Source: Terriglobus albidus
GTDB taxonomy: Bacteria; Acidobacteriota; Terriglobia; Terriglobales; Acidobacteriaceae
Length of the DNA: 64,000 nt
Reading direction: 5' to 3'
Assembly (NCBI RefSeq): GCF_025685425.1
Contig: NZ_JAGTAS010000025.1
Span: forward strand, 1 to 64,000
Shown here: positions 11,716 to 61,666 of the stretch, in pieces
How the letters are laid out: the number at the start of each line of letters is the position of its first letter
How positions within the stretch are numbered: position 1 is the stretch's first letter
Made by a program: the position numbers and the translations under genes
Notes under the pieces: generated by a model
What the model saw: the letters and a program-made list of their open reading frames with translations, nothing else
Database searches by the model: none
Told to the model about the DNA's origin: nothing

Positions 11716-11729
11716 CGTCGATTTCCTTA

Positions 11730-11841: not shown

Positions 11842-11899
11842 AGCGTAATTACCATTTTGCAGCATTCCACATCCCTCGTAGAATTCTGCCGGAGGAGAC

Positions 11900-16667: not shown

Positions 16668-16757
16668 TATAGAGCGGGCCTTCAGCCCTTAGTCTTTCAA
16701 TGTGCCAGCAACCTGGGGCGTTGCCCCAGGCTGGTATAGAACGCGCCTTCAGCGCTC
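16668..16757. repeat. GAAGG-type palindromic repeat, reverse copy
   Basis: Reverse-oriented unit (TATAGAGCGGGCCTTCAGCC, CCTGGGGCGTTGCCCCAGG, CTGGTATAGAACGCGCCTTC). The gap 16430-16822 also contains a diverged stretch near 16560-16620 with TCATTTCGTAGCGAAGCAGAG, a motif echoed near 31796. No gene is seen here. Confidence 0.7.
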
Positions 16758-16822: not shown

Positions 16823-17257
16823 ATGGTCATCGCGCTTTGTATCGGAGCCCTCTCAGGCGTATTAGCTGTTATCGCATACCAGCGGAAGCGATCGGCACAC
16901 TTCAAAGCCCTGGCGAGTCGGTTCGGATTCATGTATCTCGGAAATGCTCTTCCGAAATCACTCACGGTCTCTGGCACAGACATCGCTAATCTCTCTTCGG
17001 TCTGGAATGTAATCGACGGCGAGCGCCAGGGTGTGCGAGTCGTCGCTTTCGACTGCAAGATCGGAACAGGTAAAGGAAGCCGGCGCCGGACTGTCATCGC
17101 TGTTCAGAGACCGGATGAAGGCTTAAGATATCTGGCCGGCAATCTTGAACTACATCGTTCCAATGACTGGAGCTTGCTCTATGGACCACGAGCTTCGATG
17201 ATCCAGCCCGGCTTGATGCCTGTCACAGAGCTGAGCGGATACATTGAAGCCCTGTAA
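16823..17257 (+). CDS. Hypothetical membrane-anchored protein
   Basis: A 144-residue protein with one N-terminal membrane segment (about 2-20, I-A-L-C-I-G-A-L-S-G-V-L-A-V-I-A-Y) followed by a positive patch Q-R-K-R, so the rest should face the cytoplasm. The soluble part is an alpha/beta domain with G-F-M-Y-L-G-N-A-L-P and a strand V-R-V-V-A-F-D-C-K-I-G-T-G-K-G. It resembles small 'GxGKGSR' bacterial hypotheticals; no function is recognised. Ribosome site weak (GAGAACATTACA). Confidence 0.65.
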   Translation: MVIALCIGALSGVLAVIAYQRKRSAHFKALASRFGFMYLGNALPKSLTVSGTDIANLSSVWNVIDGERQGVRVVAFDCKIGTGKGSRRRTVIAVQRPDEGLRYLAGNLELHRSNDWSLLYGPRASMIQPGLMPVTELSGYIEAL

Positions 17258-17353
17258 ATGACGTCACATGTGCTCACTCTTTCGATCGGATCGGAGGATC
17301 ATCCCGCAGACCAGAAAGCACGCCTTTGAAGAATTACCCACGCATAGTGCACG

Positions 17354-20573: not shown

Positions 20574-20688
20574 TAGAGCATTTTCCCTGTTGCGGGGTAT
20601 CCCGGAAGAGGAGTGCAGCGGCGTTTTCATTGCGGAAACGCCCATGGATGCGGATACTTTGGACTACACCTACAGGGAAAATGCTCTA
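20574..20688. repeat. MITE-like palindromic element, copy 3
   Basis: Full-length copy with near-perfect ends TAGAGCATTTTCCCTGTTGC and TACAGGGAAAATGCTCTA. It lies 33 bases after the rightward-moving palindrome-free spacer between the VOC gene start (20480) and the GT2 gene start (20765), so it sits in their shared upstream region. Confidence 0.9.
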
Positions 20689-22333: not shown

Positions 22334-22387
22334 CCCTTGCGGAATGATGTTCGTTAGAAATCCGAAAGGTGGGGCACTTGGGAGATA

Positions 22388-22652
22388 AGCGCTGAAGGCG
22401 CGTTCTATACCAGCCTGGGGCAACGCCCCAGGTTTTGATACCCACAAGATGTTAAAGGGCTGAAGGCCCGCTCTATATAAGAGTCTTTAATTCCATTTCG
22501 CACCGTTCATTGGTTGAAACTGTCTCGCTCAGAGAGATTGTGACATTGCGCGATTGGTGATTATAGGTCGGGCCTTCAGCCCTCTCACCGTTCCGCTGTC
22601 CGTTACCTGGGGCGTTGCCCCAGGCTGGTATAGAACGCGCCTTCAGCGCTTA
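22388..22652. repeat. Head-to-head pair of GAAGG-type palindromic repeats
   Basis: A forward unit (22388-22480) and a reverse unit (22560-22652) face each other across ~80 bases, making a 265-bp imperfect palindrome. Each unit has GCGCTGAAGGCGCG, the CCTGGGGCAACGCCCCAGG hairpin and GGGCTGAAGGCCCG. This fills the 388-base gap between the small ORF at 22088 and the VWFA gene; no gene is seen inside. Confidence 0.8.
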
Positions 22653-22721
22653 TTCTCGTTCTGCCAGGGTGTCCGCCTTGGGAACCGGCGAATTTGTTTG
22701 CTGAGACAAACGCTCACAGCG

Positions 22722-31586: not shown

Positions 31587-31702
31587 TAAAGCATTTTTCC
31601 TGTTATTGGGTATCCCGGAAGAGGAGTGCACCGGCGTTTTCATTGCGAAAACGCCCATAGATGCGGATGCCCTACTCTACACCTACAGGAAAAACGCTCG
31701 AG
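31587..31702. repeat. MITE-like palindromic element, copy 4
   Basis: Full-length copy (TAAAGCATTTTTCCTGTTAT to CAGGAAAAACGCTCG) that starts only 13 bases upstream of the kinase ATG. It therefore occupies the expected promoter region and ribosome site of the two-component operon. The rest of the gap to 31854 is A/T-poor sequence with a TCATTTCGTCGAGCAGCGGAG motif; no gene is seen. Confidence 0.9.
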
Positions 31703-34530: not shown

Positions 34531-34643
34531 TAGAGCGTTTCCTGTTTCCAGGTATCCCGGAAGGGACGTACAACGGCGTTTTCATTGCGGAAAACGCCCC
34601 TGTGATGTGGAAGCTCTAGACCCACCCACAGGGAAAACGCTCA
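34531..34643. repeat. MITE-like palindromic element, copy 5, between padR and ADOP genes
   Basis: Nearly full copy (TAGAGCGTTTCCTGTTTCCA to CAGGGAAAACGCTCA). Its right end contains the TGA stop of the PadR gene, and its left end lies 16 bases from the permease ATG. PadR and ADOP genes elsewhere in this window touch each other, so this insertion has spread the pair apart. Confidence 0.88.
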
Positions 34644-34991
34644 GCCGTTCGATTCTCCGAGGATGAGGCCGATGGCGCGGGTCATCCGTCGCCAGCGGCT
34701 GGTTGCTGCCGCCAGCTCTTTATGACCCTTTGCTGTCAGCCTGTAGAACTTGGCCCTTCGGTTGTTGTCGCTCACACCCCACTCGGAGGAGACCAGCCCC
34801 CGATCTTCAAGCCGGTGAAGCGCCGGATAGAGTGAGCCCTGCTCCACTTCGAGAGCGTTTTCCGACGTACTTTCGATCGAGTGCGCAATCGTGTGCCCAT
34901 GTGCGGGACCAAGGATCAGCGTGCGCAAGATGAGCAGGTCAAGCGTTCCCTGAAGAATCTCGCCTGCATCCGGTGTTTTATTCCTCGCCAT
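34641..34991 (-). CDS. PadR-family transcriptional regulator, copy 1
   Basis: A 116-residue winged-helix repressor. The PadR core is clear: LQGTLDLLILRTL (helix 1), G-H-T-I-A-H-S-I-E (helix 2), QGSLYPALHRLEDRGL (recognition helix), the wing W-G-V-S-D-N-N-R-R-A-K-F-Y-R-L-T, and a C-terminal dimer helix ending in G-E-S-N-G. It should repress itself and the ADOP permease at 31855. GGAGAGGCC precedes the ATG. The last residues and stop run into the MITE-like element. Just upstream lies a direct-plus-inverted repeat that looks like its operator. Confidence 0.93.
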   Translation of the reverse strand: MARNKTPDAGEILQGTLDLLILRTLILGPAHGHTIAHSIESTSENALEVEQGSLYPALHRLEDRGLVSSEWGVSDNNRRAKFYRLTAKGHKELAAATSRWRRMTRAIGLILGESNG

Positions 34992-35102: not shown

Positions 35103-37847
35103 TCAATCGTGCCGTAGAGCGCGGATGGGATCGATTCTGGAGGCGCGACGGGCAGGTGCGAAAGCTGCAAGGAGGGATACGACGATCAAAAGCACTGCTG
35201 TACTTCCCAACGTGAGCGCGTCCAGGCTTCCAAGGCCGTACAGCATGACGCGAATGAATCTCGTGAGCCACAGAGCAGCAATCAACCCAAGAACGATACC
35301 TGCACCCGTCAAGCAGAAGGCTTCGCGCAATATGCGGGAGAGAACCTGCCTGGCCTGTGCTCCCAGCGCCATGCGCAAGCCGATTTCTCCGGTCCGCGTA
35401 GTGACCGCATACGCCATCATTCCATAAATACCAATGCTTGCAAGCACCAGCGCCAGCAAGCTGAAACCTCCCGCAAGCTGCGCGAGAGCGCGTTCATCCG
35501 CCAGCGTTGACCGTACCTGCTCCTTCATCGTGCGCACGTCGGTCATTGGCAGATCTGCGTCAAGAGATTCAACGGTTGTTCGAGCCTCGGTCAATACACT
35601 GGCCGGATCCGCAAGGGTGCGCAGTTCAACCATCATGCGACTCGGCCCGTTCGACTTCTGCACGTACGGGGCATAAAAAGTGGGAGGGGTGTCAGTGCGC
35701 AGATCAGCATAACGCGTGTCCGCAGCGATGCCGACGATCTGAACCGGACCCTCTACGACATCTGTTTCGAACGTCTTTCCGATGGCGTTCTCGTTGGGAA
35801 AGAACTTCTCTGCCAGCGCGCGATTCACAACTGCGACTTTAGGAGAGGTCGAATTGTCATGCTGGTTGAATGCGCGTCCCTGCAAGATCGGGATGCCGAG
35901 TGTCTCAAAGAAATCCGCACCGACACCATTGGTTTGTACCCGAACGGGATCCTTTTCCTTCGGACGGCCCAGGACATGGAAATTCGCTCCCGAATGTCCA
36001 TCACCGATGATGCCGATGTTATTGACGGTTACGGAGCGAACTCCGGGAAGTGACGCGAGTCTTTCCTCAAGCTGTTTAAAGAAAGTCGCCATTTGCGCAT
36101 CGCTGTAGCGGGTGCGCGGAAGGTCCAGGCGGAAAAGCAGGATGTTGTTCGAGTCGAAGCCCAGGGGGATGCGATTGAGATTGACCAGTGTGTGTACGAA
36201 CAGCCCTGCGCCCATCAGCAAGGTCGCCGAAACTGCAATCTGGCCAATGACAAGAGTCTTGTCAAGCCAGAGCCGATGCCGATTAACGGTGGCTCCTCCC
36301 CATTCCCGGAGCCCGCAATAAGTAGCCATTCGCATCGCCTGCCAAGCAGGCGCCAATCCGAACAGGATGCCGGTAGCGATTGAGATTCCCAGGGTGAACA
36401 GAAGCACACGCCAGTCGAACTGCACTTGCTCGAGTTCCGGCTGTGGCGAATTTGTTAGCAGCCTTAGGACAACGTTGCGGCCGAGGTAGCCGAGCAACAA
36501 TCCCGCTATCCCACCGAAGCTGGAAAGCAACAGGGCCTCGGTTAACATTTGCCGGATAATACTTCCGCGGCCGGCTCCCAGCGCCATCCGTGTACTCAGT
36601 TCACGCTGCCTGCTGGCCGAACGCGCAAGCAGCAGGTTGGCCAGATTGAGACAGGCCAGCAGCAAAACGAACCCTGCAATCGCCAGCAGCACGTACGATA
36701 GCCTCGCGTATTCCGCTCGCAAATAGTCCAACCCGCGATCGCCCGGTGCGAACTGCAAGTGAAATCGATCAAGATCGCCTGTGTGTTTCAGAACCGGCAT
36801 CGCGGCCTGGCGCAGCGTTGTATCAAGCTCGCCCTGAGCCCGCCCCTCAGAAACGTCCGGACGCAATCGAACCAGGACCTGTAGCCACCATGACTGGGGA
36901 TTGTCCAGCAGAGAGACACTCCCATTCTGCGCCTTGGGCAGAATGAGAGGCTGCATGGTGAGTGGGGCGAAGACCTGCATCGAGCTTCCCATCTGCAAGC
37001 CTGCAAAACGACCGCTGCTGACGCCGATGATTGTCACCGGGACACCATTCAATGAGATCGATTTCCCCACAACCAGAGGAGACCGCGCGAATCGCTGTGT
37101 CCAAAATCCGTCGCTGATGACCACCACCGGGCCGCTGCCAGGTGCAAGATCATCGGCCGGGCTCAGGGTCCGGCCCAACTCCGGTTTTACACCGAGGGCT
37201 TGAAAGGCATTGCCGCTGATCAACTCTCCGCTGATCGTCTCCGCATGCCCGTCGATCGTTGCGGTCATCGGAGCGTCTTTGAAAGCGACGAATGACTCAA
37301 CGGCGTCAGCTCTCTTGCGCATCTCCTCAAACACGGGATATGAGAAGCTGTTCGAGGTGAGTCCGCCGGCTTCATTCGGCCCGACATCTCCCCACACTGG
37401 TGGAACCGGCAGTTCATGACCGCTAACCCAGGTCAGCATCCGCAGTTGATGAGGGTTCGTCACTGGCAGCGTGTCGAACAGCACTCGTTTTGCCGCAGTA
37501 AAGATAGCCGTATTTGCACCGATGCCGAGGGCCAGCGAGGTAATCGCCACGCACGTCAGAATGGGATTTCGTGCCAACTGGCGCAGACCAAAGTGGAGAT
37601 CGCGCATTAGCGTGGTTAAGCTGGATAACGTGCGCTGCCTGTAGTGACGCTCTCTCAACAAAGTTGTGTTCCCAAATTGACGCCGCGCCGCTGCTTCGGC
37701 ATCGCCGGGCTTCATACCCTGGAGAACGAACCGGTCTGCAAGCATTTGGATGTGTAACTGGATCTCGTTTTCCAGTTCGCAGTTTGACCGTTGCCGGCCA
37801 AATAACCCCCGAAGCTTCGCCATGAATACCCGGATACGAGTGGCCAT
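35103..37847 (-). CDS. ABC transporter permease, ADOP family, copy 2
   Basis: A 914-residue duplicated permease with the same order as its paralogues: N-terminal helical domain (E-L-E-N-E-I-Q-L-H-I-Q-M), TM1 N-P-I-L-T-C-V-A-I-T-S-L-A-L-G-I-G-A-N-T-A-I-F, MacB-like periplasmic region, FtsX-type helices twice, and the C-terminal S-R-I-D-P-I-R-A-L-R-H-D. The start could be 37847 (AGGGGGAACC upstream) or Met9 at 37823. Its own PadR gene is only a relic (37884-37944), so it may have lost specific control or answer to the PadR encoded next downstream at 34991. Confidence 0.92.
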   Translation of the reverse strand: MATRIRVFMAKLRGLFGRQRSNCELENEIQLHIQMLADRFVLQGMKPGDAEAAARRQFGNTTLLRERHYRQRTLSSLTTLMRDLHFGLRQLARNPILTCVAITSLALGIGANTAIFTAAKRVLFDTLPVTNPHQLRMLTWVSGHELPVPPVWGDVGPNEAGGLTSNSFSYPVFEEMRKRADAVESFVAFKDAPMTATIDGHAETISGELISGNAFQALGVKPELGRTLSPADDLAPGSGPVVVISDGFWTQRFARSPLVVGKSISLNGVPVTIIGVSSGRFAGLQMGSSMQVFAPLTMQPLILPKAQNGSVSLLDNPQSWWLQVLVRLRPDVSEGRAQGELDTTLRQAAMPVLKHTGDLDRFHLQFAPGDRGLDYLRAEYARLSYVLLAIAGFVLLLACLNLANLLLARSASRQRELSTRMALGAGRGSIIRQMLTEALLLSSFGGIAGLLLGYLGRNVVLRLLTNSPQPELEQVQFDWRVLLFTLGISIATGILFGLAPAWQAMRMATYCGLREWGGATVNRHRLWLDKTLVIGQIAVSATLLMGAGLFVHTLVNLNRIPLGFDSNNILLFRLDLPRTRYSDAQMATFFKQLEERLASLPGVRSVTVNNIGIIGDGHSGANFHVLGRPKEKDPVRVQTNGVGADFFETLGIPILQGRAFNQHDNSTSPKVAVVNRALAEKFFPNENAIGKTFETDVVEGPVQIVGIAADTRYADLRTDTPPTFYAPYVQKSNGPSRMMVELRTLADPASVLTEARTTVESLDADLPMTDVRTMKEQVRSTLADERALAQLAGGFSLLALVLASIGIYGMMAYAVTTRTGEIGLRMALGAQARQVLSRILREAFCLTGAGIVLGLIAALWLTRFIRVMLYGLGSLDALTLGSTAVLLIVVSLLAAFAPARRASRIDPIRALRHD

Positions 37848-37869
37848 CGTTACGGTTCCCCCTGCAGGC

Positions 37870-37887
37870 TAGAGCATTTTCCCTATA
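37870..37887. repeat. Terminal fragment of the MITE-like element (copy 6)
   Basis: Only the end TAGAGCATTTTCCCTATA remains. It lies 23 bases upstream of the ADOP copy 2 start and truncates the padR relic read leftwards from 37944. Confidence 0.7.
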
Positions 37888-37944
37888 AGTATTCAGGAAT
37901 CATCAGGTCGAGAGTGCCTTGCAGAACCTCGGACTTTTCCGCAT
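37884..37944 (-). pseudogene. Relic of a PadR gene, cut by a MITE-like end
   Basis: On the minus strand the frame E-K-S-E-V-L-Q-G-T-L-D-L-M-I-P-E-Y-L-stop is the start of a PadR protein (compare D-V-L-Q-G-T-L-A-L-M-V-L at 56056). AAAGGAGG lies before an ATG at 37944, but that ATG is one base out of frame with the PadR sequence. After the first helix the sequence passes into the MITE-like terminal fragment, which supplies the TAG. So both a frameshift and a truncation are present. The relic sits exactly where a PadR gene is expected before an ADOP permease. Confidence 0.75.
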
Positions 37945-37950
37945 AGGCCT

Positions 37951-37969
37951 CCTTTGCACACCGCAAAGG
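37951..37969. promoter_or_regulatory. Residual palindrome upstream of the padR relic
   Basis: CCTTTGC (37951-37957) and GCAAAGG (37963-37969) form a 7-bp inverted repeat at the position of the operators found before intact PadR genes. It may be the surviving operator of the lost regulator. Nothing else was recognised between 37970 and 38290. Confidence 0.4.
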
Positions 37970-38296
37970 TATCATCGGCTCCTTTGGAATGTCCATAGGA
38001 GAGTTAGGCTATCTGTTTGGCTGTGTCCCGCGATTTACGGGAACATGGCAACGCACTCATTGAGTAGGTCGCTTTGACATCCACCCCGGGTGTCAACTTG
38101 ACGTGAATTGGCGTGAGAATCAGGCTCAGGAATAGCGACTCTGCGGCCCGCTATGCTGAACCATCCCAGTCGGGTGAGATAGCCCGGCGAAAAGTGACAA
38201 TGCCTTGACAACCCGCAGAACTGCCGGGGACTAGCATTACTCGCTCGACAAACCCATCGATAACGTGTGGCGATTTCACTTGAGGAGGACATGAAT

Positions 38297-39421
38297 ATGT
38301 CAGGTGGAAAGAAGGCGCATTTTAGGCTGACCGCAGCGGCAGTGGGATTGCTGGTGACCCTCTCGGCCATGACTCAGGCGGTTGCTCAAACATCCTATCA
38401 ACGCACGAATCTGGTCTCCGATATCCCTGGTGTCGCTAACTTTGCTGATTCGAACCTTGTCAACCCGTGGGGGATTGTCAATGCCGGCAGCACGGGGCCC
38501 ATCTGGATCGCCGACAATGGAACCGGGCTCTCTACGGTGTACACCGGGGAGGGCGTGGCATTTCCAACGGCTTCTCCGCTTGTCGTGATTATCCCCACGC
38601 CACGCCATAGCCCGGCCGGTGCGGTCGCCGCGCCGACAGGCATCGTGTTCAACAGTACGAGCGGTTTTGTCGTTTCGGCCGGCGGAAACTCCGGTGCGAG
38701 CCGTTTCATCTTCGCTACGGAAGAGGGCACCATCAGCGGATGGAATCCGACAGTAGATCCGACTCACGCCATCCTGGCTGTGAACCATTCTGGTCCAGGC
38801 GCCAGCGCGGGTCGCACCAGGCTTGGGGCCGTCTACAAGGGTCTGGCAATCGGCAACAACGGGTCTGGGGATTTTATTTATGCGACCAACTTCCGTGACG
38901 GCATGGTCGAAATGTACGACACGCACTTTCAACTGGTGAAATCGTTCACGGATAGCGAGATTCCCAGCGGATTCGCGCCGTTCGGCATTCGCAACATCGA
39001 TGGCAAGTTATTCGTGACCTATGCGAAACAGGACGCGAAACGTCATGATGACGTGAAAGGGCCAGGCAATGGGTACATCGATATCTTCGACCTGAATGGC
39101 ATTCTGCAGAGCAGGTTTGCCGCCGATGGAGCGCTGAACTCACCGTGGGGATTGGCAGTTGCTCCCATTAATTTCGGCGCATTCAGCGGCTCATTGCTGG
39201 TCGGCAACTTCGGGGACGGCAGGATCAACGCCTTCAGTCAGAGCACGGGCAATTTTCTCGGCCAGTTGCAGGACACATTCGGAAACCCCATGACGATCAA
39301 TGGCCTGTGGGGGTTGGAGTTCGGGAACGGCGCCCATCAGGCCCCGACGACAACGCTCTTCTTTACTGCCGGTATCGGTGATGAGAGTCACGGCTTATTT
39401 GGAGCGATTACTTCCCAGTAG
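38297..39421 (+). CDS. Secreted TIGR03118-family protein
   Basis: An exported protein of 374 residues from ATG 38297 (GGAGG eight bases before; the ATG at 38291 is too close to it). Signal peptide: L-T-A-A-A-V-G-L-L-V-T-L-S-A-M-T-Q-A-V-AQ. The mature protein looks like a beta-propeller with repeated glycine-rich strands: L-V-N-P-W-G-I-V, G-P-I-W-I-A-D-N-G-T-G, P-T-G-I-V-F-N, S-P-W-G-L-A-V-A-P, L-L-V-G-N-F-G-D-G, and I-N-G-L-W-G-L-E-F-G-N-G near the end. These are the marks of the TIGR03118 group, common in Acidobacteriota and other soil bacteria. Function unknown; an NHL-type extracellular propeller is likely. Confidence 0.88.
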   Translation: MSGGKKAHFRLTAAAVGLLVTLSAMTQAVAQTSYQRTNLVSDIPGVANFADSNLVNPWGIVNAGSTGPIWIADNGTGLSTVYTGEGVAFPTASPLVVIIPTPRHSPAGAVAAPTGIVFNSTSGFVVSAGGNSGASRFIFATEEGTISGWNPTVDPTHAILAVNHSGPGASAGRTRLGAVYKGLAIGNNGSGDFIYATNFRDGMVEMYDTHFQLVKSFTDSEIPSGFAPFGIRNIDGKLFVTYAKQDAKRHDDVKGPGNGYIDIFDLNGILQSRFAADGALNSPWGLAVAPINFGAFSGSLLVGNFGDGRINAFSQSTGNFLGQLQDTFGNPMTINGLWGLEFGNGAHQAPTTTLFFTAGIGDESHGLFGAITSQ

Positions 39422-39631
39422 GAAGTGAGCGTGCGCGCCGAGTCGCAGGAACTGAACGGGTTGCCGCATTCAGCGGGTCAGGCCGCTCCGTTCCTATAAC
39501 AGAAAGGTCGCGAACCGCAGTCGGTTTGAATGCGATGCAGGCCTCGTCGTCGTACAGGCATCCTGAAACGCCACTGGTCCGGAGCGGCTGACGAGCTTGG
39601 ACCGCGACCTGAGCTTGTCACGGAAAATGCT

Positions 39632-39979
39632 CTAACAGGTCACGTGCAGAATGGCATTTGTCGCAGGTTCCCTTTCTATAAGCCGGAGGGCCTCACTGGT
39701 CGGTACGATAACCAACTCGACGTGGCGGCGTTCCGCCTCAACCTTCACCTCTGTCATAACTGGCAAACGACCGTACTGTCCGGTGCCGATCACAAGCCGC
39801 TTGCATTTCCAAGGTATCTTTTCTTCGATGGACAGGGGCGTATGCCCAAACTCATCGCGGAACTTCCTGGAAGGGGCCTTCTTTCGTTTGCGGACTTCTC
39901 CGTGGTCGATCACCACATCCTGTTCGTACGTGCGGCCGTCGATTCGGAGCGCACCGAACGAAAATTTGTCGAAGTGCAT
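39632..39979 (-). CDS. Mth938-like domain protein
   Basis: A 115-residue protein of the Mth938/NDUFAF3-like family. It begins F-S-F-G-A-L-R-I-D-G-R-T-Y-E-Q-D-V-V-I-D and contains the conserved core K-R-L-V-I-G-T-G-Q-Y-G and V-P-T-S-E-A-L-R-L-I. In mitochondria the homologue assists complex I assembly; the bacterial role is unsettled. AGGAGG precedes the ATG. The FmdB-like gene ends 25 bases upstream on the same strand, so the two form a small operon. Confidence 0.88.
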   Translation of the reverse strand: MHFDKFSFGALRIDGRTYEQDVVIDHGEVRKRKKAPSRKFRDEFGHTPLSIEEKIPWKCKRLVIGTGQYGRLPVMTEVKVEAERRHVELVIVPTSEALRLIEREPATNAILHVTC

Positions 39980-44396: not shown

Positions 44397-44512
44397 TAGA
44401 GCATTTTTCCTGTTGTTGGGTATCCCGGAAGAGGAGTGCAGCGGCGTTTTCATTGCGGAAAACGCCCATAAATGCGGAATCCCTACGCTGCACCTACAGG
44501 AAAAATGCTCTA
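44397..44512. repeat. MITE-like palindromic element, copy 7
   Basis: Full-length copy (TAGAGCATTTTTCCTGTTGT to TACAGGAAAAATGCTCTA) ending 34 bases before the xylanase ATG. The xylanase promoter must therefore lie in or before the element. Confidence 0.92.
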
Positions 44513-46754: not shown

Positions 46755-46870
46755 TAAAGCATTTTCCCTATAGGTGTAGTCCAGAGCATCTGCATCTATG
46801 GGCGTTTTCCGCAATGAAAATGCCGCTACACGCCCCTTCCGGGATACCCAGCAATAGGGAAAATGCTCTA
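46755..46870. repeat. MITE-like palindromic element, copy 8, inverted
   Basis: Full-length copy in the opposite orientation (TAAAGCATTTTCCCTATAGG to ATAGGGAAAATGCTCTA). It lies between the xylanase stop and the start of the secreted protein at 46918. Confidence 0.9.
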
Positions 46871-49116: not shown

Positions 49117-49394
49117 GATCGCTCACACCTCAAGTGCATCATGCTATCCGTGATCTTGCCCGGAGGCAATCCGGAAAGTTTCGGCGTCAATTGCCGACTT
49201 CGGCCATGCCATTCATCGAGATTCAGTCAGAGACGAGTCCAACTGCATCCTCTCCGAAATGCCCGGATATAATTTCGTGGCCGCAAAATGCCAATGATCG
49301 GGGATTCGAATCATTGAAACGTAGATCGATCGCATTCGGAATGGGAACGTCCCGTCTGTCCCCGGGTTTCATAGGTTTCATAATCCCCAATCGT

Positions 49395-49594
49395 CATAAA
49401 TGAAATGGCTCGTGAAACCGTTGTATATCTATCGGACGATACGGTCGGATTGAAGACTGTTATATAGGGCGGGCCTTCAGCCCTTTGACATCTTGGGGGC
49501 GCCAAAACCTGGGGCGTTGCCCCAGGCTGGTATAGAACGCGCCTTTCCACCCCAATGAACAAGTTCATTGGGGACCCCGGTCTTCAGCGCTCAA
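49395..49594. repeat. Hairpin plus reverse GAAGG-type repeat; MITE 'empty site' version
   Basis: ATGAAATGGCTCGTGAAACCG at about 49400 is followed by a spacer (TTGTATATCTATCGGACGATACGG) and the reverse unit 49462-49594. The same hairpin-spacer-unit order at 56376-56643 contains a MITE-like element inside the spacer. This region is part of the 591-base gap 49117-49707; no gene was seen in it. Confidence 0.75.
49546..49584. repeat. Nested hairpin insertion inside a GAAGG-type repeat
   Basis: The conserved unit text GAACGCGCCTTCAGCGC is interrupted after CGCCTT by about 39 bases. Their core is an 11-bp perfect hairpin, CCCCAATGAAC (49550-49560) and GTTCATTGGGG (49563-49573), with a two-base loop. 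CTT is found on both sides (49543-49545 and 49582-49584), as expected for a short target duplication. Confidence 0.75.
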
Positions 49595-49664
49595 TTCTCC
49601 GTAGGGCTGATCTGTGGTTGGCACGAGGAGATCTTAAATCAATCGAATTTTCCGATCCCGTCGG

Positions 49665-49702
49665 GTGGCACTACTTGCGAAGGCAAGTCTTGAGTAGTGC
49701 CG
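49665..49702 (-). terminator. Hairpin after ADOP copy 3
   Basis: On the minus strand GGCACTAC, CTTGC, CTTC loop, GCAAG and TAGTGCC form a nested stem starting six bases after the stop codon. Related hairpins follow the ADOP copy at 52989 and the ADOP relic at 40857. It may end or stabilise the transcript. Confidence 0.6.
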
Positions 49703-49707
49703 GAAAT

Positions 49708-52401
49708 TCATTCATAGCGGAGAGCCATCATGGGATCTACTTGCGAGGCTCGGCGAGCGGGTAAGTAGCCGGAGATGATGCCAACGAGGAGCAGAGCGGC
49801 GACGGACGCGATGAGAGTGATGGCGTCCGTGCCTTGAATCCCAAAGAGCATATTGGTGACGAGGCGCGAGCCGGCGAGGGCGACAGGAACGCCGATGACG
49901 ACGCCGATGGTGACGAGGAGGATGATCTCGCGCATGATAAGCCAGCTGACGTTGGAGCGTTCGGCGCCGAGTGCCATGCGGATGCCGATCTCGTTGGTGC
50001 GGCGGGAGACCATGTAGGACATCAAACCGTAGATGCCGATGCAGCAAAGGAAGACGGCGAGCAGACCGAAGAAGGTGGAGAGCTGAGCGACGGTGCGTTG
50101 CTGGGTGATGGAGCCGGCCACTTGTTCCTCAAGTGAGGAGACGCGGGTGATGGGAAGGCCGCCGTCGATGGAGTGGATGGTGTTCTGAACGGCGCCGGAG
50201 ACGATGGCTGGGTCGCCGGTATAGCGGACTACGAGGCTTTGGAGATATCGTGCGCGCTGAGCATAGGGCATGTAGTCGGTATAAGTGCGGCCTTCGCCGA
50301 GTCCTTCAAACTTTGCGTCTTTGGCAATGCCGATGATTTCCATGTCGTACTGGGGAACATTCTGGTCGACGCCAATCGCGAAGTGGCGGCCGATGGGATT
50401 GGTGTTGGGGAAAAATCTTTTGGCGAAGCTCTCGCTGATGATGGTGACTTTCTGCGAGGTGGATGTGTCCTGCGGGCCGAAGGCGCGGCCGGCGATGATT
50501 GGAATCTGCATCGCCTTGAAGTAATCGTTGCCGACAACATTCTGGCTGATGTTGTGGGAAAGGCTGGGATCGATGCCCGGGATGATGACCGAATTGTTCC
50601 AGGCGCCCTGACTGAAGGTGAACATGGCGAAGCTGGCGGAGGTAACGCCGTGGATGGCGGCGATGCGTTGCTCAATCTGCTGATAGAGAGTGCTGAGCCG
50701 GGGTTCAGAGTCCTTGTAGCCGATGGAACTGGGATCGAGGCTGAGGACGAGGGCGTTCTCGCGGTTGAAACCTGTGTCGACGTGGTTGAGGTTGATCAGG
50801 CTGCGAACGAAGAGGATGGCGCCGACGAGAAGGACAAGCGAGAAGGCTATCTGGGTGATGATGACGCCTTTGGCGAGCGGAGTTTTTTGCCCGCCGTTGT
50901 CGGCGCTGCGGCCATCTTTGAGAGATTCGGTGAGCTCAAGCTTAGTGGCACGGAGAGCGGGGAGGGTTCCGAAGAGAAGAGCCGTGAATACCGTAACGCC
51001 GATGGTGAAGAGCAGGACGTCCGTGTGGATGGAGACATCAAGTGGAATGGTATCGGGACCGCTGGAGATCATGCGGAGCAGAATGCGATTGGCGAGACCA
51101 GTGAGGGCGATGCCGAGTGCGCCACCGGCGGCAGCGAGGAGAAGTGATTCGGTGAGGAGTTGGCGGATGAGGCGCGAACGCTTTGCGCCGAGCGCCTGAC
51201 GCACAGCAAACTCGCGGACCCGTGCGGTGGACCGGGCTAGGAGAAGATTAGCGATGTTGGCGCAGGCGATGAGAAGAACAATTCCTGTTAGCGAGATGAG
51301 GACTTTCAGAGGCTTGGAATATTCACTCCGCAGGCCTGAGAGTCCTTTCTCCATGGGCGTGAGGGGGACTTGAGTTTTTTGGAGATCGGCGAGGTCTTGC
51401 TGGGTGACGTGCGCATTGCGATAGCTGAGCCAGATCTGGTGGAAGACGAGATTGATGTTCGAAGTTGCCTGATCGAGCGAGACGCCGGGTTTGAGGCGGC
51501 CGAAGATGTAGAGCGATTCGTTGCGCTTGTCGGAGTAGCTGCCCCAGTTGGGTGGAACGAAAGCGATCATGGACATGGGAACCCAGATGTCTGGCCGCTG
51601 ACCGACGGTGGTGCCGAAGAACTCCTGAGGCGCGACGCCGACGATGTCGAAGGTGGTATTGCCGAGCTTGAGTTTGCGGTTGAGAACTTGCGGGTCGCGG
51701 GAGAGACTGCCGGCCCACCATGCGTAGCTGATGACGGCGACGGGATGGTTGCCTTCGGTGTTGTCATCTTCATCGGTAAGCAGACGGCCCAGGAGAGGGC
51801 GGACGCCGAGGGTGGGAAAGTAGGTGCCGGAGATGAGCTGGACCTTCATCGGCTCAGTGTGGTCGCGGTTGTCTACGGTCCCGAAGACAGAGTTGGTCAT
51901 GCTCAAGATCGAGGCCGTATCGCTGAAGACAGTGTTGTTCTTCTGCAGGTCGCGGTAAAAGGGATAGGAATAGAGCTCGGAGATTGCCCAGGCATCTGAT
52001 CTTCCACTCCATGCGCCGGTGCCGACCAGGACGAGTTGCGAGGGCTGCTGGACGGGCAGGTTGCGGAGCAGGATTGCGTCAAGAAAACTGAAGATGGCAG
52101 TGTTGGCGCCGATGCCGAGACCAAGCGAGAGCAGGGCGACGGCGGTGAGCGCGGGACTGCGGAACAGAGAACGGATACCGTACGCGACGTCCTTGAGAAA
52201 GCTTTCCAGCCATTCCAGGCCCCAGGCAAGATGACTTTGCTCGCGAATCAGTGTGGGATTGCCGAAGGCACGCAGAGCGGCGAGACGGGCTTCTTCTGGT
52301 GATAAGCCGCGCTCCCGCTGCTCTTCCACTTCCAGTTCGAGGTCAGAGCTTAGTTCCCTCTCCAGATCTGCGTCCCGTTTCCTGATCTGCCACCATCTCA
52401 T
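49708..52401 (-). CDS. ABC transporter permease, ADOP family, copy 3
   Basis: An 897-residue duplicated permease. It starts M-R-W-W-Q-I-R-K-R-D-A-D-L-E-R-E-L-S-S-D-L with the N-terminal helical domain. TM1 follows (A-L-T-A-V-A-L-L-S-L-G-L-G-I-G-A-N-T-A-I-F), then a MacB-type periplasmic part and FtsX-like helices, repeated, closing S-Q-V-D-P-M-M-A-L-R-Y-E. ATG 52401 is used because GGAGAGC precedes it and the PadR stop lies one base before; the frame is open to 52434. G-rich third positions on the coding complement generate a long antisense frame (50173-51147). Part of a PadR-ADOP module with tight coupling. Confidence 0.93.
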   Translation of the reverse strand: MRWWQIRKRDADLERELSSDLELEVEEQRERGLSPEEARLAALRAFGNPTLIREQSHLAWGLEWLESFLKDVAYGIRSLFRSPALTAVALLSLGLGIGANTAIFSFLDAILLRNLPVQQPSQLVLVGTGAWSGRSDAWAISELYSYPFYRDLQKNNTVFSDTASILSMTNSVFGTVDNRDHTEPMKVQLISGTYFPTLGVRPLLGRLLTDEDDNTEGNHPVAVISYAWWAGSLSRDPQVLNRKLKLGNTTFDIVGVAPQEFFGTTVGQRPDIWVPMSMIAFVPPNWGSYSDKRNESLYIFGRLKPGVSLDQATSNINLVFHQIWLSYRNAHVTQQDLADLQKTQVPLTPMEKGLSGLRSEYSKPLKVLISLTGIVLLIACANIANLLLARSTARVREFAVRQALGAKRSRLIRQLLTESLLLAAAGGALGIALTGLANRILLRMISSGPDTIPLDVSIHTDVLLFTIGVTVFTALLFGTLPALRATKLELTESLKDGRSADNGGQKTPLAKGVIITQIAFSLVLLVGAILFVRSLINLNHVDTGFNRENALVLSLDPSSIGYKDSEPRLSTLYQQIEQRIAAIHGVTSASFAMFTFSQGAWNNSVIIPGIDPSLSHNISQNVVGNDYFKAMQIPIIAGRAFGPQDTSTSQKVTIISESFAKRFFPNTNPIGRHFAIGVDQNVPQYDMEIIGIAKDAKFEGLGEGRTYTDYMPYAQRARYLQSLVVRYTGDPAIVSGAVQNTIHSIDGGLPITRVSSLEEQVAGSITQQRTVAQLSTFFGLLAVFLCCIGIYGLMSYMVSRRTNEIGIRMALGAERSNVSWLIMREIILLVTIGVVIGVPVALAGSRLVTNMLFGIQGTDAITLIASVAALLLVGIISGYLPARRASQVDPMMALRYE

Positions 52402-52402
52402 C

Positions 52403-52768
52403 TCAGCTCTCCTCACCAGCAGGCCACATGACACGCGCCACAGCTTCGGCCATCTGTTTCCACTGCGATTCTTCGATCACGAGTTGTTTTTTGCCTTTTT
52501 CCGTAAGCCGGTAATACTTGAACTCCCGATTGCGATCAGGGGCCGTCTCCCATTTGGAAACAATCCAACCCTTTTTCTCCAGACGGTGCAGCGCGGGATA
52601 GAGAGAGCCATGCTGCATTTGAAGGAAGTCGTTGGTGGTCCGCTGGATATACTTGCCAATCTCACGGCCATGCGCTGCGCCGTAAACAAGCGTTCGCAGA
52701 ATGAGCATGTCCAGAGTTCCCTGGAGTACGTTGGCACGGTGCTGCATATTCTTATCCATGGTAGACAT
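52403..52768 (-). CDS. PadR-family transcriptional regulator, copy 2
   Basis: A 121-residue (or 118 from the ATG at 52759) winged-helix repressor. LQGTLDMLILRTL, A-A-H-G-R-E-I-G-K-Y-I, MQHGSLYPALHRLEKKGW, and the wing D-R-N-R-E-F-K-Y-Y-R-L-T are all present. The start lies inside its own direct-plus-inverted repeat, so bound PadR would block initiation; the message may be leaderless or have a very short leader. The ADOP gene starts right after its stop. Confidence 0.93.
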   Translation of the reverse strand: MSTMDKNMQHRANVLQGTLDMLILRTLVYGAAHGREIGKYIQRTTNDFLQMQHGSLYPALHRLEKKGWIVSKWETAPDRNREFKYYRLTEKGKKQLVIEESQWKQMAEAVARVMWPAGEES

Positions 52769-52808
52769 CCGACTATCAATGGAAATTGATAGTAGACATC
52801 CGACTATC
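52761..52808. promoter_or_regulatory. Candidate PadR operator: 17-bp direct repeat with central palindrome
   Basis: GTAGACATCCGACTATC occurs at 52761-52777 and 52792-52808, identical. Overlapping their inner ends, ACTATCAAT (52772-52780) and ATTGATAGT (52785-52793) form a perfect 9-bp inverted repeat around GGAA. The block overlaps the padR start codon. The geometry matches the operator before the PadR gene at 34991. Confidence 0.78.
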
Positions 52809-52948
52809 GACTGTCAAGGATTCAAATTCCAGCTTTGTTTGGCAGATGATCGCGTGAATCCAGAGCCCGCCGCTCCCACGGGTTCGCGCGGAGCGCGAAT
52901 ACCCAGGGCCACCCAGAGCATCAGTACTCCGGATCGATCGATACACCC

Positions 52949-52984
52949 TGGCTACTTGCAAGGGCAGGTCTCGAGCAGTGCCAA
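52949..52984 (-). terminator. Hairpin after ADOP copy 4
   Basis: Four bases after the stop, the minus strand runs GGCACTGC, TCGAGACCTGC, CCTT loop, GCAAG, TAGCC. It is clearly related to 49665-49702 and 40813-40850. Confidence 0.6.
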
Positions 52985-52988
52985 TAAC

Positions 52989-55712
52989 TCATTCAGAGTG
53001 GAGCGTCGTGATTGGATCGAAGCGCATGGCGCGCAGTGCCGGAATATAGCTGGCGGCGAGTGCGACGGCGGTAAGCACAACGGTGAAGCCCGCAAAGGTG
53101 GGGAGATCGGTAGGGGATACGCCGTAGAGCAATCCGGACATGAGGTGAGAGACAATGAGCGCACCGGCTATGCCAAGCCCGGTGCCCGCGGCAGCCAGGC
53201 CCGCTCCCCGGCGCAAGACCATCCTGAGAATCATGGCTTTCTGGGCTCCCAGCGCGAGGCGGATGGCGATCTCGCGTCTTTGTTCATTCACCACATACGA
53301 AATCGTTCCGTAGATTCCAAGCCCGGCGAGCAGCAAGGCCGTGGCCGCAAAGAACGCCACCATCTCCATGGAGAATCGCCTCACGGAAAGCGACTCGGAG
53401 AGCACCTCATCCAGAGTCTCGCCATGGAAGACCGGGAGCTCCGGATCGATGGATTGGATCTGTGTACGCATCTGCGAGGAGATGGCGCTGGGGTCGAGCT
53501 GCCCGCGAAGAAAGATCGCCAGGTCCTTGGCGGGGCGCTGGTAGATGCTGCGGTAGATCTGCGGAATGGCTGCGTCAGCCAGCGATTCTGTGCGCGCATC
53601 CGCAATCACGCCAATGATCGTTGTCCAGGGTGGCGTGGAAGAGGCCCGCCGGTCGCGGCCATCCAGGCGCAAGCGGACGCGTTTGCCTAGCGGATCCTGA
53701 TTTGGCCAATAGGTAAGAGCAGCGGCCTGATTGATGACAGCAACCTGGGGAGTCTCCTCGAGGTCCTGGTCGTTGAAAAGGCGGCCACGCAACAGCGGCA
53801 CGCTCAACAGGTGGAAGTATTCGGGCGAGACGATGGGGCTATTGATCACAGGCGCCTCGTTGTCCTTCGTCTCGATGCCTTCGCGGATCAATGGCAGCCG
53901 GCCCGGCTGGCCATGGCCCAGAGGGAGCGCGGCTTCGTCACCTACGGCTGCTTCCTCGACACCCGGCAGGGTTCGGCTGCGGCGAAGAATCTCGCGCAGC
54001 AGGACCGCTTCCTGTGTGGCCGACCGGTAGATATCGGCACTGGGATCGTTCGGTCCCGGCAGCCAGGTTTGAATGGCCATGACGCGGTTAGGATTGAAGC
54101 CGGGCTGCACCTTGAACAAGTCCCAGAAGCTTCTCAACAAAAGCCCCGCGGCGATCAGAAGCACCAGGGACAACGCCAATTCACTGATGACCAGCGTCTG
54201 GCGGGCACGCGCACGTTCCCGTGATCCGCTGGAGCCGCGGCCTTCCTGGCGAAGTGTACCGATCAGATCGAAGCGGCTCATCAGCCACGCCGGCGCGAGC
54301 CCGAAAACAGTTCCGGTCACGACAGAGACGGCCACGGCAAACACCAGCACGCCCCAGTTGATCGAGATGTTATTCAGGTGCGGCAGGCTCTCCGGAATAA
54401 GCCGCAGCAGGAAGTGCTGGGCGCTGAACAGAATGGCAACACCGGCGATTCCGCCAAGCACGAAGAGCAGCAGGCTCTCGGCGAGAAACTGGCGGATGAG
54501 CCGCGTTCTCTGCGCGCCTAAAGCCTGACGCACCGCGATCTCGCGGCCTCGCCCGCTCGCCCGGGCAAGCAATAGATTGGCCACGTTGACGCAACTGATG
54601 AGCAGCACCAGTCCCACCGCGCCGAACAGCAGAATGAGAGAGGAACGAATGCTGCCGACCACGGTTTCAGTAAGCGGGATCAGGCGCACGGTCCATGCGG
54701 TCTGCGCGGGATAGTCGGCCGGATACTGCTTCTTCAGCGTGTCCACCAGCGCATCAAGATGCCCCTGCGCGGCCGCAATCGAGAGACCCGGCTTCAGGCG
54801 CGCGATGACGGCTCTGCTCGCCAGACGCAGATCGCGCTGCGGAGGCCGGAACGGCAGACCGGTAAAGCCGGCTCCCAGCCACAGGTCCACATTCTGCTCG
54901 TCACTGGTTGAGCCCTGATCGCGAAAACCGCGAGGCATGATGCCCACAACGCGATAGGCGTCGTTGTCCAGGCGCAGAACCCTGCCAATCATCTGCGGGT
55001 CGGCGCCGAACTCCTTTCTCCAAAGCCCGTCACTGATCACGACCTCAAGGTTGTAGCCGGGAGTGGGATCGTTCGGATCGAAGGTGCGGCCCAACTGCGC
55101 GCTTACACCCAGGACCGCGAAGTAATTCGGCGTAACCTGCTTGAAGCTGAGACGCAGTGGCTGTTCACTGCCCGTGAGGTTCACGTTTGCGCCGGTGCCG
55201 GTGAGCGCCACAGACTGGAAGATTCCCGAAGCTTGCAGGTCTCTCCACTCAGGAATGGAGATGCCTACGCCGTGCGCGCCTACACCGGGAAGATCGTCCT
55301 GAACGCGCACCAGCTCCGCAGGATTTGGATACGGCAACGGGTGCAGCAGCGTGGCGTCAATCACGCTATAGATTGCCGTGGTGGCTCCTATCCCCAGCGC
55401 CATGGTGCCGATCGCAATGACCGAGAATCCAGGAGATTTCAAAACCATGCGGATCGCGTAACGAAGATCGAAGAGCAGATTCTCGAAGAAAGGAATGCTT
55501 TGCTCGGCGTGATGACGCTCCCGAATTGCTTCGACTGGCCCAAGCTTCAGTGCGGCTTGTCGCCGCGCCTCGGCAGGGGCCATACCGGCACGCACGTTCT
55601 CCTCGGCCTGAAACGCAAGATGCTCGGCGATCTCTTCCTGGAGACGTTGATCGGCACTCCGTCGAGTTACGAAGTTAGAAAACCGGATTCTGAACCGCCG
55701 CAGGAATCTCAT
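52989..55712 (-). CDS. ABC transporter permease, ADOP family, copy 4
   Basis: A 907-residue duplicated permease. From ATG 55712 (GGAGGATC before it, overlapping the PadR stop as ATGA) it reads M-R-F-L-R-R-F-R-I-R-F and the N-terminal helical domain L-Q-E-E-I-A-E-H-L-A-F-Q. TM1 is S-P-G-F-S-V-I-A-I-G-T-M-A-L-G-I-G-A-T; the two MacB/FtsX halves follow and it ends A-L-R-A-M-R-F-D-P-I-T-T-L-H-S-E. A frame open to 55859 lies inside padR and is not used. The relic at 40857 comes from a close relative of this copy. Confidence 0.93.
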   Translation of the reverse strand: MRFLRRFRIRFSNFVTRRSADQRLQEEIAEHLAFQAEENVRAGMAPAEARRQAALKLGPVEAIRERHHAEQSIPFFENLLFDLRYAIRMVLKSPGFSVIAIGTMALGIGATTAIYSVIDATLLHPLPYPNPAELVRVQDDLPGVGAHGVGISIPEWRDLQASGIFQSVALTGTGANVNLTGSEQPLRLSFKQVTPNYFAVLGVSAQLGRTFDPNDPTPGYNLEVVISDGLWRKEFGADPQMIGRVLRLDNDAYRVVGIMPRGFRDQGSTSDEQNVDLWLGAGFTGLPFRPPQRDLRLASRAVIARLKPGLSIAAAQGHLDALVDTLKKQYPADYPAQTAWTVRLIPLTETVVGSIRSSLILLFGAVGLVLLISCVNVANLLLARASGRGREIAVRQALGAQRTRLIRQFLAESLLLFVLGGIAGVAILFSAQHFLLRLIPESLPHLNNISINWGVLVFAVAVSVVTGTVFGLAPAWLMSRFDLIGTLRQEGRGSSGSRERARARQTLVISELALSLVLLIAAGLLLRSFWDLFKVQPGFNPNRVMAIQTWLPGPNDPSADIYRSATQEAVLLREILRRSRTLPGVEEAAVGDEAALPLGHGQPGRLPLIREGIETKDNEAPVINSPIVSPEYFHLLSVPLLRGRLFNDQDLEETPQVAVINQAAALTYWPNQDPLGKRVRLRLDGRDRRASSTPPWTTIIGVIADARTESLADAAIPQIYRSIYQRPAKDLAIFLRGQLDPSAISSQMRTQIQSIDPELPVFHGETLDEVLSESLSVRRFSMEMVAFFAATALLLAGLGIYGTISYVVNEQRREIAIRLALGAQKAMILRMVLRRGAGLAAAGTGLGIAGALIVSHLMSGLLYGVSPTDLPTFAGFTVVLTAVALAASYIPALRAMRFDPITTLHSE

Positions 55713-56056
55713 GACAGATCCTCCGCCTTGACGTTGAAAAACCGGGCGATGATGGCCGCGGTCTGCTCCCAGTCGCGGGTCTCTGCCTGAAGCTGTTTGC
55801 GGCCTGCGGCGGTAAGCCGATAGAAGCGCGCGCGGCGCTTGTTCTCCGATACACCCCACTCCGATGCAATCGAGCCTTCATGCTCCAACCGGAGCAGCAG
55901 AGGATAAAGCGTGCCCTGGTTCACCGCCAGAAGGTCTCCGCTGATCTGCTCGATGCGACGGGCAATCCCCCAGCCATGCTGCGGTTCAAGGACATCGAGT
56001 GTCTTGAGGACCATCAGCGCGAGAGTCCCTTGCAAAACGTCCGGCTTTTCCTTCAT
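55709..56056 (-). CDS. PadR-family transcriptional regulator, copy 3
   Basis: A 116-residue winged-helix repressor: D-V-L-Q-G-T-L-A-L-M-V-L-K-T-L, G-W-G-I-A-R-R-I-E, V-N-Q-G-T-L-Y-P-L-L-L-R-L-E, and the wing W-G-V-S-E-N-K-R-R-A-R-F-Y-R-L-T. It overlaps the ADOP copy 4 start by four bases. Upstream, GGACCT (56081-56086) and AGGTTTCC make a short imperfect palindrome, weaker than the operators before the other two PadR genes. Confidence 0.93.
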   Translation of the reverse strand: MKEKPDVLQGTLALMVLKTLDVLEPQHGWGIARRIEQISGDLLAVNQGTLYPLLLRLEHEGSIASEWGVSENKRRARFYRLTAAGRKQLQAETRDWEQTAAIIARFFNVKAEDLS

Positions 56057-56144
56057 GAGGCTTTTTCCTTCACGACAAATGGACCTTTAGGTTTCCAACA
56101 GGAATCATGACACGCTTCTTTTGGGAAAACAACAGGAGACGGAG

Positions 56145-56252
56145 ATGATGCGTTTCCTGAAGGGTGCATTTCCTTCGGATTTGCCCAGAAATGCCGATGA
56201 GTCGGAGGTCGTGGACTTCCTGAAGCAACAGCTAAAGTTCAATCTTTATTGA
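56145..56252 (+). CDS. Possible small protein of 35 codons
   Basis: ATG-ATG follows CAGGAGACGG, a fair ribosome site. The peptide starts M-M-R-F-L-K-G-A-F-P-S-D-L-P-R, has an acidic middle (D-E-S-E-V-V-D-F-L-K) and ends K-F-N-L-Y before TGA. It could be a real small protein or a remnant of a longer gene. No relative is recognised. Confidence 0.3.
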   Translation: MMRFLKGAFPSDLPRNADESEVVDFLKQQLKFNLY

Positions 56253-56268
56253 GCCAGAAAGATGTGTT

Positions 56269-56360
56269 GAGCGCTGAAGGCGCGCTCTATACCAGCCTGG
56301 GGCAACGCCCCAGGTACGGAGATAGGGAAACTGTAAGAGGGCTGAAGGCCCGATCTATAA
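56269..56360. repeat. GAAGG-type palindromic repeat, forward, with hairpin
   Basis: Unit GAGCGCTGAAGGCGCGCTCT to GGGCTGAAGGCCCGATCT, followed at 56376-56400 by the AAACGGTT / AAACCGTT hairpin. It faces a reverse unit at 56555-56643, with a MITE-like copy between them. Confidence 0.8.
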
Positions 56361-56405
56361 TCCTGATCGTCACAAACGAAACGGTTCGTGAAACCGTTGT
56401 ATGCC

Positions 56406-56522
56406 TAGAGAATTTTCCCTGTTGCTGGGTATCCCGCAAGAGGCGTGCAGGGGCCATTTTCATTTGCGGAAACGCCCATAGAATGCAAGAGCCCTACTCC
56501 ACATCTACAGGAAAAATGCTCC
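56406..56522. repeat. MITE-like palindromic element, copy 9, inside a repeat pair
   Basis: TAGAGAATTTTCCCTGTTGC to CAGGAAAAATGCTCCA. It interrupts a spacer whose uninterrupted counterpart is seen at about 49420-49445, with TA as apparent target. Confidence 0.88.
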
Positions 56523-56554
56523 ATCGAAACGATAGGGTCGAATTGAAGGCTCTT

Positions 56555-56643
56555 ATATAGGGCGGGCCTTCAGCCCTTTGGTTTCAATGGGCCGGAGACC
56601 TGGGGCGTTGCCCCAGGCTGGTATAGAACGCGCCTTCAGCGCT
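56555..56643. repeat. GAAGG-type palindromic repeat, reverse
   Basis: TATATAGGGCGGGCCTTCAG to GAACGCGCCTTCAGCGCT, with the CCTGGGGCGTTGCCCCAGG hairpin. The 220 bases after it (56644-56865) hold a short open stretch reading F-L-R-F-L-K-I-D-F-P-P-P-V-K-A-K with no start or ribosome site; nothing else was seen there. Confidence 0.8.
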
Positions 56644-58650: not shown

Positions 58651-58725
58651 GCAGCGGCGTTTTCATTGCGGAAAACGCCCATAGATGCGGATGCTCTGGG
58701 CTACACCTACAGAGAAAATGCTCTA
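58651..58725. repeat. MITE-like palindromic element, copy 10, left end lost
   Basis: The core GCAGCGGCGTTTTCATTGCG and the right end ACAGAGAAAATGCTCTA are kept, but the left ~30 bases do not match. The final TA/TAG reads leftwards as the TAG stop of the beta-helix gene. Confidence 0.85.
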
Positions 58726-61464: not shown

Positions 61465-61579
61465 TAGAGCATTTTCACTGTTGCTGGGTATCCCGGAAGA
61501 GGAGTGCAGTGGCGTTTTCATTGCGGAAAACGCCCATAGATGCGGAAGCCCTACTCTGCACCTACAGGGAAAATGCTCC
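61465..61579. repeat. MITE-like palindromic element, copy 11
   Basis: TAGAGCATTTTCACTGTTGC to CTACAGGGAAAATGCTCCA, with the internal hairpin intact. It lies between the 36-residue gene and greB. Confidence 0.9.
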
Positions 61580-61666
61580 ATCTCTGCCGATGAAGCAGCT
61601 GATCCAACCTATGAATGGGCAATCAGCTAATCGAGGCACTCATTAATTCGCGCTGGAGAGGGAAGG

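Follow-up and report, generated by a model that had tools for sequence, protein, structure and literature searches.

The stretch considered here, the first 64,000 nucleotides of Terriglobus albidus contig NZ_JAGTAS010000025.1 (hereafter the window), contains two copies of a dispersed repeat that differ by the presence of a 114-bp miniature inverted-repeat transposable element (MITE). The repeat, hereafter called the host repeat, is uninterrupted at 49380-49550 (+), where its central spacer and right arm are found, and carries the MITE at 56270-56643 (+), where two inverted double-palindrome arms enclose it. The MITE is very probably a non-autonomous DNA transposon that duplicates TA, is driven in trans by a DDE transposase and takes the polar target YTA-NCG, nested here in a miniature element of Y1 type.

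In sequence and alignment, the uninterrupted copy has a single TA (49430-49431, +) in the context GTTGTATATC-TA-TCGGACGATACGG, and the order in the occupied copy is GTTGTATGCC-TA-(114 bp, 56408-56521)-CA-TCGAAACGATAGGG. An earlier reading of the letters alone (the sequence-only reading) had proposed that a MITE-like element occupies the second site, that its target was TA and that the right duplicate had since become CA, and all of this agreed with the alignment of both sites. The left TA lies at 56406-56407 (+), opposite 49430-49431, and the right duplicate, now CA, at 56522-56523 (+). The MITE copy between them (56408-56521, +) matches the family consensus at 87% in BLAST, and its ends are partly decayed (GAGAATTTTCCCTGT / ACAGGAAAAATGCTC). 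The flanks are homologous and, apart from the MITE, nothing beyond a TA-sized duplication separates the copies, so that the outcome named in the sequence-only reading as its refutation (unrelated flanks or a larger missing stretch) did not occur: the left flanks are identical at 34 of 42 positions, the right flanks match over 56 of 57 nucleotides with one 1-nt gap, and the joined flanks reach a local alignment score of 77, compared with at most 17 in 300 shuffles.

The sequence-only reading had also taken the pair as an empty and an occupied site and as direct evidence of insertion. The presence and absence of the element stood, but the two sites are paralogous copies of a dispersed repeat, not alleles. 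Since the flanks belong to a repeat with 75 matches in the own genome (49380-49550 as query), the pair consists of two repeat copies, one carrying the MITE and one lacking it, rather than of one locus before and after insertion. It is therefore indirect evidence, and the direct evidence comes from orthologous loci in relatives. At the 56,408 site itself, the similarity to one relative, G002, stops at window position 56139, and the contig of another, G015, includes the downstream gene and breaks off short of the site.

The MITE has 15-bp inverted repeats, or 17-bp complementary ends once the TA duplicates are counted. It is short (<300 bp), and no protein gene was recognised within it, coding capacity being judged from length alone. 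The family consensus built from the copies is 116 bp from TA to TA (TAGAGCATTTTCCCTGTTGCTGGG...ACACCTACAGGGAAAATGCTCTA) and, because its ends are inverted, folds as a single strand into a long hairpin (-52.1 kcal/mol, z -5.85). Among 112 distinct copies, i.e., those of 160 matches in which both ends were reached and flanks were present, TA stands at the left end in 94 and at the right end in 78.

Orthologous sites and the orientation of the target

Insertion units were collected from the own genome, G002, metagenome-assembled sequences, G012 and G015 (257 in total); 214 with both ends and 200-bp flanks were kept and 43 were dropped. The element was removed from each, one TA was left, and an alignment spanning the junction was sought in another genome at an identity of at least 80%. 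A junction-spanning counterpart was found for 46 of the 214 units (60 pairs). Over 18 bases round the junction (+/-8 bp), 36 pairs representing 29 units were free of gaps. Counted by pairs, the empty allele was TA in 25 of these 36; counted by units, 21 of the 29 had TA in one relative or more; where both TA copies were intact, it was TA in 15 of 18 gap-free units. When intact ends were defined more strictly (22 units, 31 pairs), 19 pairs were gap-free over 26 bases and TA was found in 23 of the 31. The MITE family inserts at TA and duplicates it, and the empty sites show the insertion together with the target duplication.

Two sites in the window are empty alleles of this kind. At 38238-38242 (CATTACTCGC, TA at 38238-38239) the ortholog in G015 carries a MITE between TA and TG (L263 1384-1497; sites outside the window are given by locus number). 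At 24806-24810 the MITE is present in G002 (L110 13268-13383), and the own genome, G012 and G015 lack it; the empty alleles have TG in place of TA (CA when read on the opposite strand). Between G002 and the own genome, the G002 units were empty in the own genome in 16 cases and shared in four (flanks 90-140 bp apart), and the own units were empty in G002 in 14 cases and shared in three. Much of the spread of the MITE therefore came after the species split.

Some results count against so simple a picture of insertion. Junctions were gap-free in 36 of the 60 pairs, compared with 53 to 56 at each of four control positions set off from the junction; misplaced decayed ends probably account for part of this shortfall, and real small indels perhaps for another part. 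Furthermore, eight of the 29 gap-free units showed a dinucleotide other than TA, the site at 24806 among them. A four-base target duplication, CTAG, was considered and rejected: the base before TA is variable and the base after it is nearly fixed within the element. Of 43 empty sites, 36 lie under open reading frames (ORFs) of at least 150 aa, compared with a fraction of 0.90 for random TA, which says nothing about a preference for genes or spacers because spurious ORFs are common.

The flanks of the target are not symmetrical. When 205 single-copy units were grouped by related flanks into 181 independent insertions, a pyrimidine preceded TA in 157, and CG occupied positions +2/+3 in 52, compared with three at the mirror positions on the left. 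The complete motif YTANCG was found at 44 of the 181 insertions and its mirror at two, and among the TA sites in the flanks, taken as background, the motif and its mirror fit about equally often (81/1752, 4.6%, and 76/1752, 4.3%). The imbalance recurred in each of three sets (15 vs 1 of 54 in the own genome, 17 vs 1 of 60 in G002, 12 vs 0 of 67 in the rest) and in the ungrouped data with host-repeat copies left out (46 vs 2 of 199). Statistically, insertion prefers an oriented target, YTA-NCG. In gap-free orthologous pairs with CG beside the MITE, the empty allele already had CG in 12 of 17, so that CG is mostly part of the target and not of the MITE end; in further gap-free pairs, CG was present only in the empty allele in three and in neither allele in 24.

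Three points weigh against this interpretation. CG was missing from the empty allele in five of the 17 pairs, and three pairs had it only in the empty allele. Moreover, the motif was derived from the same flanks in which it was counted, the mirror, the background and the three separate sets being the only controls. A polar target is unexpected for a symmetric TA element. We infer that the MITE treats the two sides of the target differently owing to unequal subterminal sequences, in which case its transposase would distinguish the left end of the MITE from the right.

The host repeat and the nested copies

Each arm of the host repeat is a double palindrome, inverted with respect to the other, and its outer half passes the gathering score (37 bits) of the Rfam family RF01687, Acido-Lenti-1. 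At the occupied copy, the left outer arm (56270-56314, -) scores 40.4 bits and the right (56599-56643, +) 39.7 bits. There are five matches at or above the gathering score in the window: these two, a pair at 22388-22432 (-) and 22606-22650 (+), and one at 16712-16756. The second pair belongs to an inverted repeat at 22385-22653 (+) that has a different centre and no MITE, apparently another miniature of the same kind.

A search with PF01797 gave 23 places with a Y1 transposase in five genomes of one genus, and Rfam was run on the 20 for which loci were available. Acido-Lenti-1 was found at four of these 20 (L319, L320, L326, L329), with eight matches in total, and at none of the other 16. Each pair is inverted round the Y1 gene at 52-57 bp on both sides, and the inner palindrome lies 9-13 bp from the gene in seven of the eight places. 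The same inverted arms thus bracket Y1 genes, which is the organisation of the TIRtron/TIRYT elements, in which a tyrosine transposase gene lies between long inverted repeats, dimers of which are also found at other places, and for which an acidobacterial TIRYT group is described (PMC3733652). The host repeat is therefore best read as a miniature TIRtron; judged by its inverted arms, Rfam matches and likeness to the arms beside Y1 genes, it looks like a miniature tyrosine-transposase (Y1/HUH) element, putatively mobile. The motif GGGGWSAS, which PMC3733652 gives for some terminal inverted repeats (TIRs) of these elements, was not seen by eye in the host arms. Acido-Lenti-1 is listed as a probable RNA and not as cis-regulatory (PMC2864571), and differs in this from the present case, in which it looks like one half of the inverted end of a transposon. 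No link to a transposase was seen in PMC2864571, as far as consulted, and none came up in the small literature found on Acido-Lenti-1 or RF01687.

The best 30 of the 75 matches to the host repeat were examined across the centre; 11 with one flank missing or mis-paired were left out and 19 were readable. Thirteen of these were uninterrupted and six carried a MITE, one of them internally deleted. All six nested MITEs lie at the identical TA in identical orientation. The 13 uninterrupted copies contain 7 to 12 TAs each in the compared stretch, and in seven of them YTANCG is present, at the central TA only; against a role of the motif stand the other six, which are without it, and two of the 13 in which the mirror motif occurs, at other places.

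One explanation for the six nested copies could be that they descend from a single old composite, i.e., that one MITE entered one host repeat and the whole was then copied by the transposase of the host repeat, so that only one event took place. The shared TA and orientation in all six would fit this explanation, as would the mobile type of the host repeat itself. However, the nested MITEs are no closer to one another (mean identity 0.821, 15 pairs) than to the 54 other MITEs of the own genome (0.838; background pairs 0.861), and the occupied host copies are closer among themselves (0.874) than their MITEs, yet less so than the uninterrupted copies (0.910). Both relations favour repeated insertion over one composite. 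In a tree of weak support, the occupied hosts do not fall into a single clade. A founder close to the consensus followed by a star-like spread would equally leave no shared variants, and a single origin is retained as a less probable but serious alternative. The co-location of MITEs at the central TA of the host repeat is shown; that this TA was hit repeatedly and independently in the same orientation is favoured, not proven.

The left half and central spacer of the host repeat had no match in the examined G002 stretches, and the right arm does match there. Separately, in two copies (window 49545-49590 and L295) a short palindrome, CCCCAATGAACAAGTTCATTGGGG, breaks the right arm at an identical position, which suggests a third small repeat type nested in the host repeat.

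On balance, and with limited confidence, we lean towards a joint statement: that the asymmetric target YTA-NCG, with the left end on the pyrimidine side, orients the MITE; that the centre of the host repeat is a repeatedly hit directional landing pad; and that Acido-Lenti-1 is the outer half of the TIR of an acidobacterial Y1 element and its miniatures, not an RNA gene.

The search for a transposase

A DDE transposase acting in trans by cut-and-paste would move the MITE. The IS630/Tc1 type is the most likely one, in view of the TA duplication, which is as in IS630/Tc1-mariner elements, and a weak resemblance of the ends. The searches for such an enzyme speak against this part of the interpretation. 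IS630 was searched in the own genome, G002, G012 and G015, DUF4096 in four genomes, and DDE_Tnp_1 in the own genome, G002 and G015, and no transposase with ends matching those of the MITE was found at these loci by end scan or by eye, the DDE_Tnp_1 loci being scanned for MITE ends only. A single DUF4096 match, in G012, was rejected since its ends differ from those of the MITE. Beyond these, 15 other genomes of the genus hold three single MITE-end matches with one mismatch. The ends of the MITE are thus not shared with any autonomous transposon found. The autonomous partner may have been lost or may belong to a family outside the search, and its absence weakens the proposed mechanism, not the insertion.

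About 3 Mb was also scanned for unpaired MITE ends (up to two mismatches), and 15 were found. The only facing pair, at 37872 and 39618 of the window (37868-39640), is 1.75 kb apart and brackets an ORF (38267-39421) for which no match was found in Pfam. Similarity to a separate G002 region starts at the right end of this segment (39632). A passenger transposon was considered here and is not proposed, since the homologues of the ORF in G002 and G015 have other boundaries.

A possible source of the MITE is an IS630-like element with the ends TAGTGTCCTGTCCCTGAAG, which was encountered where contigs end. By eye, it agrees with the right end of the MITE at 13 of 19 positions, and this element, too, lies beside TA, in one case sharing the terminal TA with a MITE (L036). 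On the other hand, six of the 19 positions differ, the likeness was noticed after several elements had been viewed, and the transposase was recovered in the IS630 search only as fragments at contig ends. Descent from this element is considered doubtful. At the place in question (L036, about 1390-1400, near a contig end), the end of the IS630-like element reads TAGTGTCCTGTCCC and adjoins the MITE.

That the MITE belongs to the REPIN-like repeats, with a Y1 tyrosine transposase (RAYT) to move it, and is not a DDE MITE is very improbable. The palindromic fold, the tandem copies, the stronger conservation of an internal stem compared with the ends and the Y1 genes of the genome could be taken to favour it, but the MITE duplicates two bases, TA, which is not known from REP transposition. 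Four of the 20 Y1 loci (L320, L324, L325 partial, L332) have matches to the MITE, always one-sided, and none of the 20 has a MITE on both sides, for which reason this origin was rejected. Equally improbable is that excision produced the uninterrupted copy at 49430, in place of its never having been hit: DNA transposons can excise and a single TA could remain, but no MITE interrupts 13 of the 19 readable host copies, in some of which the TA is altered or missing, and elsewhere an empty TA allele in two genomes opposite one occupied allele (e.g., units U5, U94 and U192) fits insertion.

Copies, distribution and known relatives

Ten MITE matches, one of them truncated, are present in the window when it is compared with the consensus by BLAST. 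Besides the copy at 56408, they lie at 1332-1446 (+), 11728-11843 (+, with a variant left end, TTATCGCATTTTCC), 20574-20688 (+), 31587-31701 (+), 34531-34644 (+, 81% to the consensus), 44397-44512 (+), 46755-46870 (on the opposite strand, -) and 61465-61580 (+, 97% to the consensus), the truncated copy at 58651-58725 (+) covering consensus positions 42-116. The window also holds three large genes for MacB/FtsX-type permeases (35103-37847, 49708-52434 and 52989-55859, all -), the latter two being neighbours between the sites at 49,430 and 56,408.

A search of the own genome gave 49 matches. The first 1.6 Mb of G002 contained 82 matches. In 739 kb of own contigs there were 44, which make up about 0.63% of that sequence. 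The density is 51-60 matches per Mb in these two genomes, the own contigs having been picked for carrying matches and the G002 sample being the first 1.6 Mb plus the counterpart of the window. Extrapolation gives about 330-360 MITEs per genome, in agreement with 334 and 434 unscored candidates from a first look. The element thus reaches high copy number at unrelated places, as expected of a bacterial MITE. Among 61 genomes searched (the own genome included), many matches were found in the own genome, G002, G012 and G015, so that the MITE is abundant in four of 19 sampled genomes of the genus. Two weak matches were found in G010, and none in the 14 other genomes of the genus or in 42 genomes of other genera. 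A 22-base core of the MITE was found by a collection scan in at least two metagenome-assembled Acidobacteria. The two G010 places (L297, about 2150-2280; L298, about 3005-3160) keep the internal hairpin core, and their terminal repeats differ by eye, which points to an older relative of the family in the genus; the family itself likewise shows stronger conservation in the core stem than at its ends.

Tandem arrays of two to three units occur at L025 1263-1608, L258 9512-9856, L260 11895-12126, L259 10188-10413 and L248 about 17229-17453. At these five unrelated places of the own genome the arrays are alike in their junction, which is of the type CTCTAATCGCATTTTCC (TAGTC in one of them), with a variant at L015 1-181. 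The array at L258 is followed by TAATCGCA, as if slippage had created the junction there. This type of junction was not seen in the examined sequences of G002, G012, G015 or the metagenome assemblies. In the end stem, both partners of pair 12/105 have changed in 61 of 195 copies, compared with 30 expected; the internal stem, however, scarcely varies, and a selected RNA function of the MITE was rejected for want of a case.

Short repeats with a TA target are known from other bacteria. RUP of the pneumococcus is 107 bp long, intergenic and present in 108 copies, has a TA target and was proposed to be mobilised in trans by IS630-Spn1 (PMC2229807). Compared by description, the present MITE resembles RUP as a short TA-target repeat. 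It differs in that the ends of RUP match a resident IS630, whereas no matching partner was found here, and also in phylum, in its estimated higher number and in its polar target. Correia/NEMIS of Neisseria (about 107 and 155 bp) has TA termini, target duplication, folded transcripts and 24-bp terminal repeats (PMC2229807); the first two features are shared, again by description, and the terminal repeats are longer than the 15 bp found here. ERIC, listed with TA termini, target duplication and 7-bp terminal repeats (PMC2229807) and present in 30 to 711 copies depending on the species (PMC10969869), is likewise similar in termini and duplication by description, but it is enterobacterial and has shorter terminal repeats. 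The present MITE is not described in the literature found on MITEs of Acidobacteria, TA-target repeats, REP/RAYT and TIRYT, in which few subscription journals were represented, as far as covered by the sources consulted in part (among them PMC10969869, PMC2229807, PMC5900883, PMC8841776 and PMC6006769).

Based on these results, the MITE is ordinary in kind, a bacterial TA-target MITE like RUP or NEMIS, and what is unexpected is its polar target and the Acido-Lenti-1 end of its host. It offers a countable burst of a bacterial MITE with before and after sites in related genomes, so that natural insertions can be used to derive the target rule of a TA transposon. If the link between Acido-Lenti-1 and the Y1 elements holds beyond the genus, an unexplained Rfam RNA family would become a transposon end.

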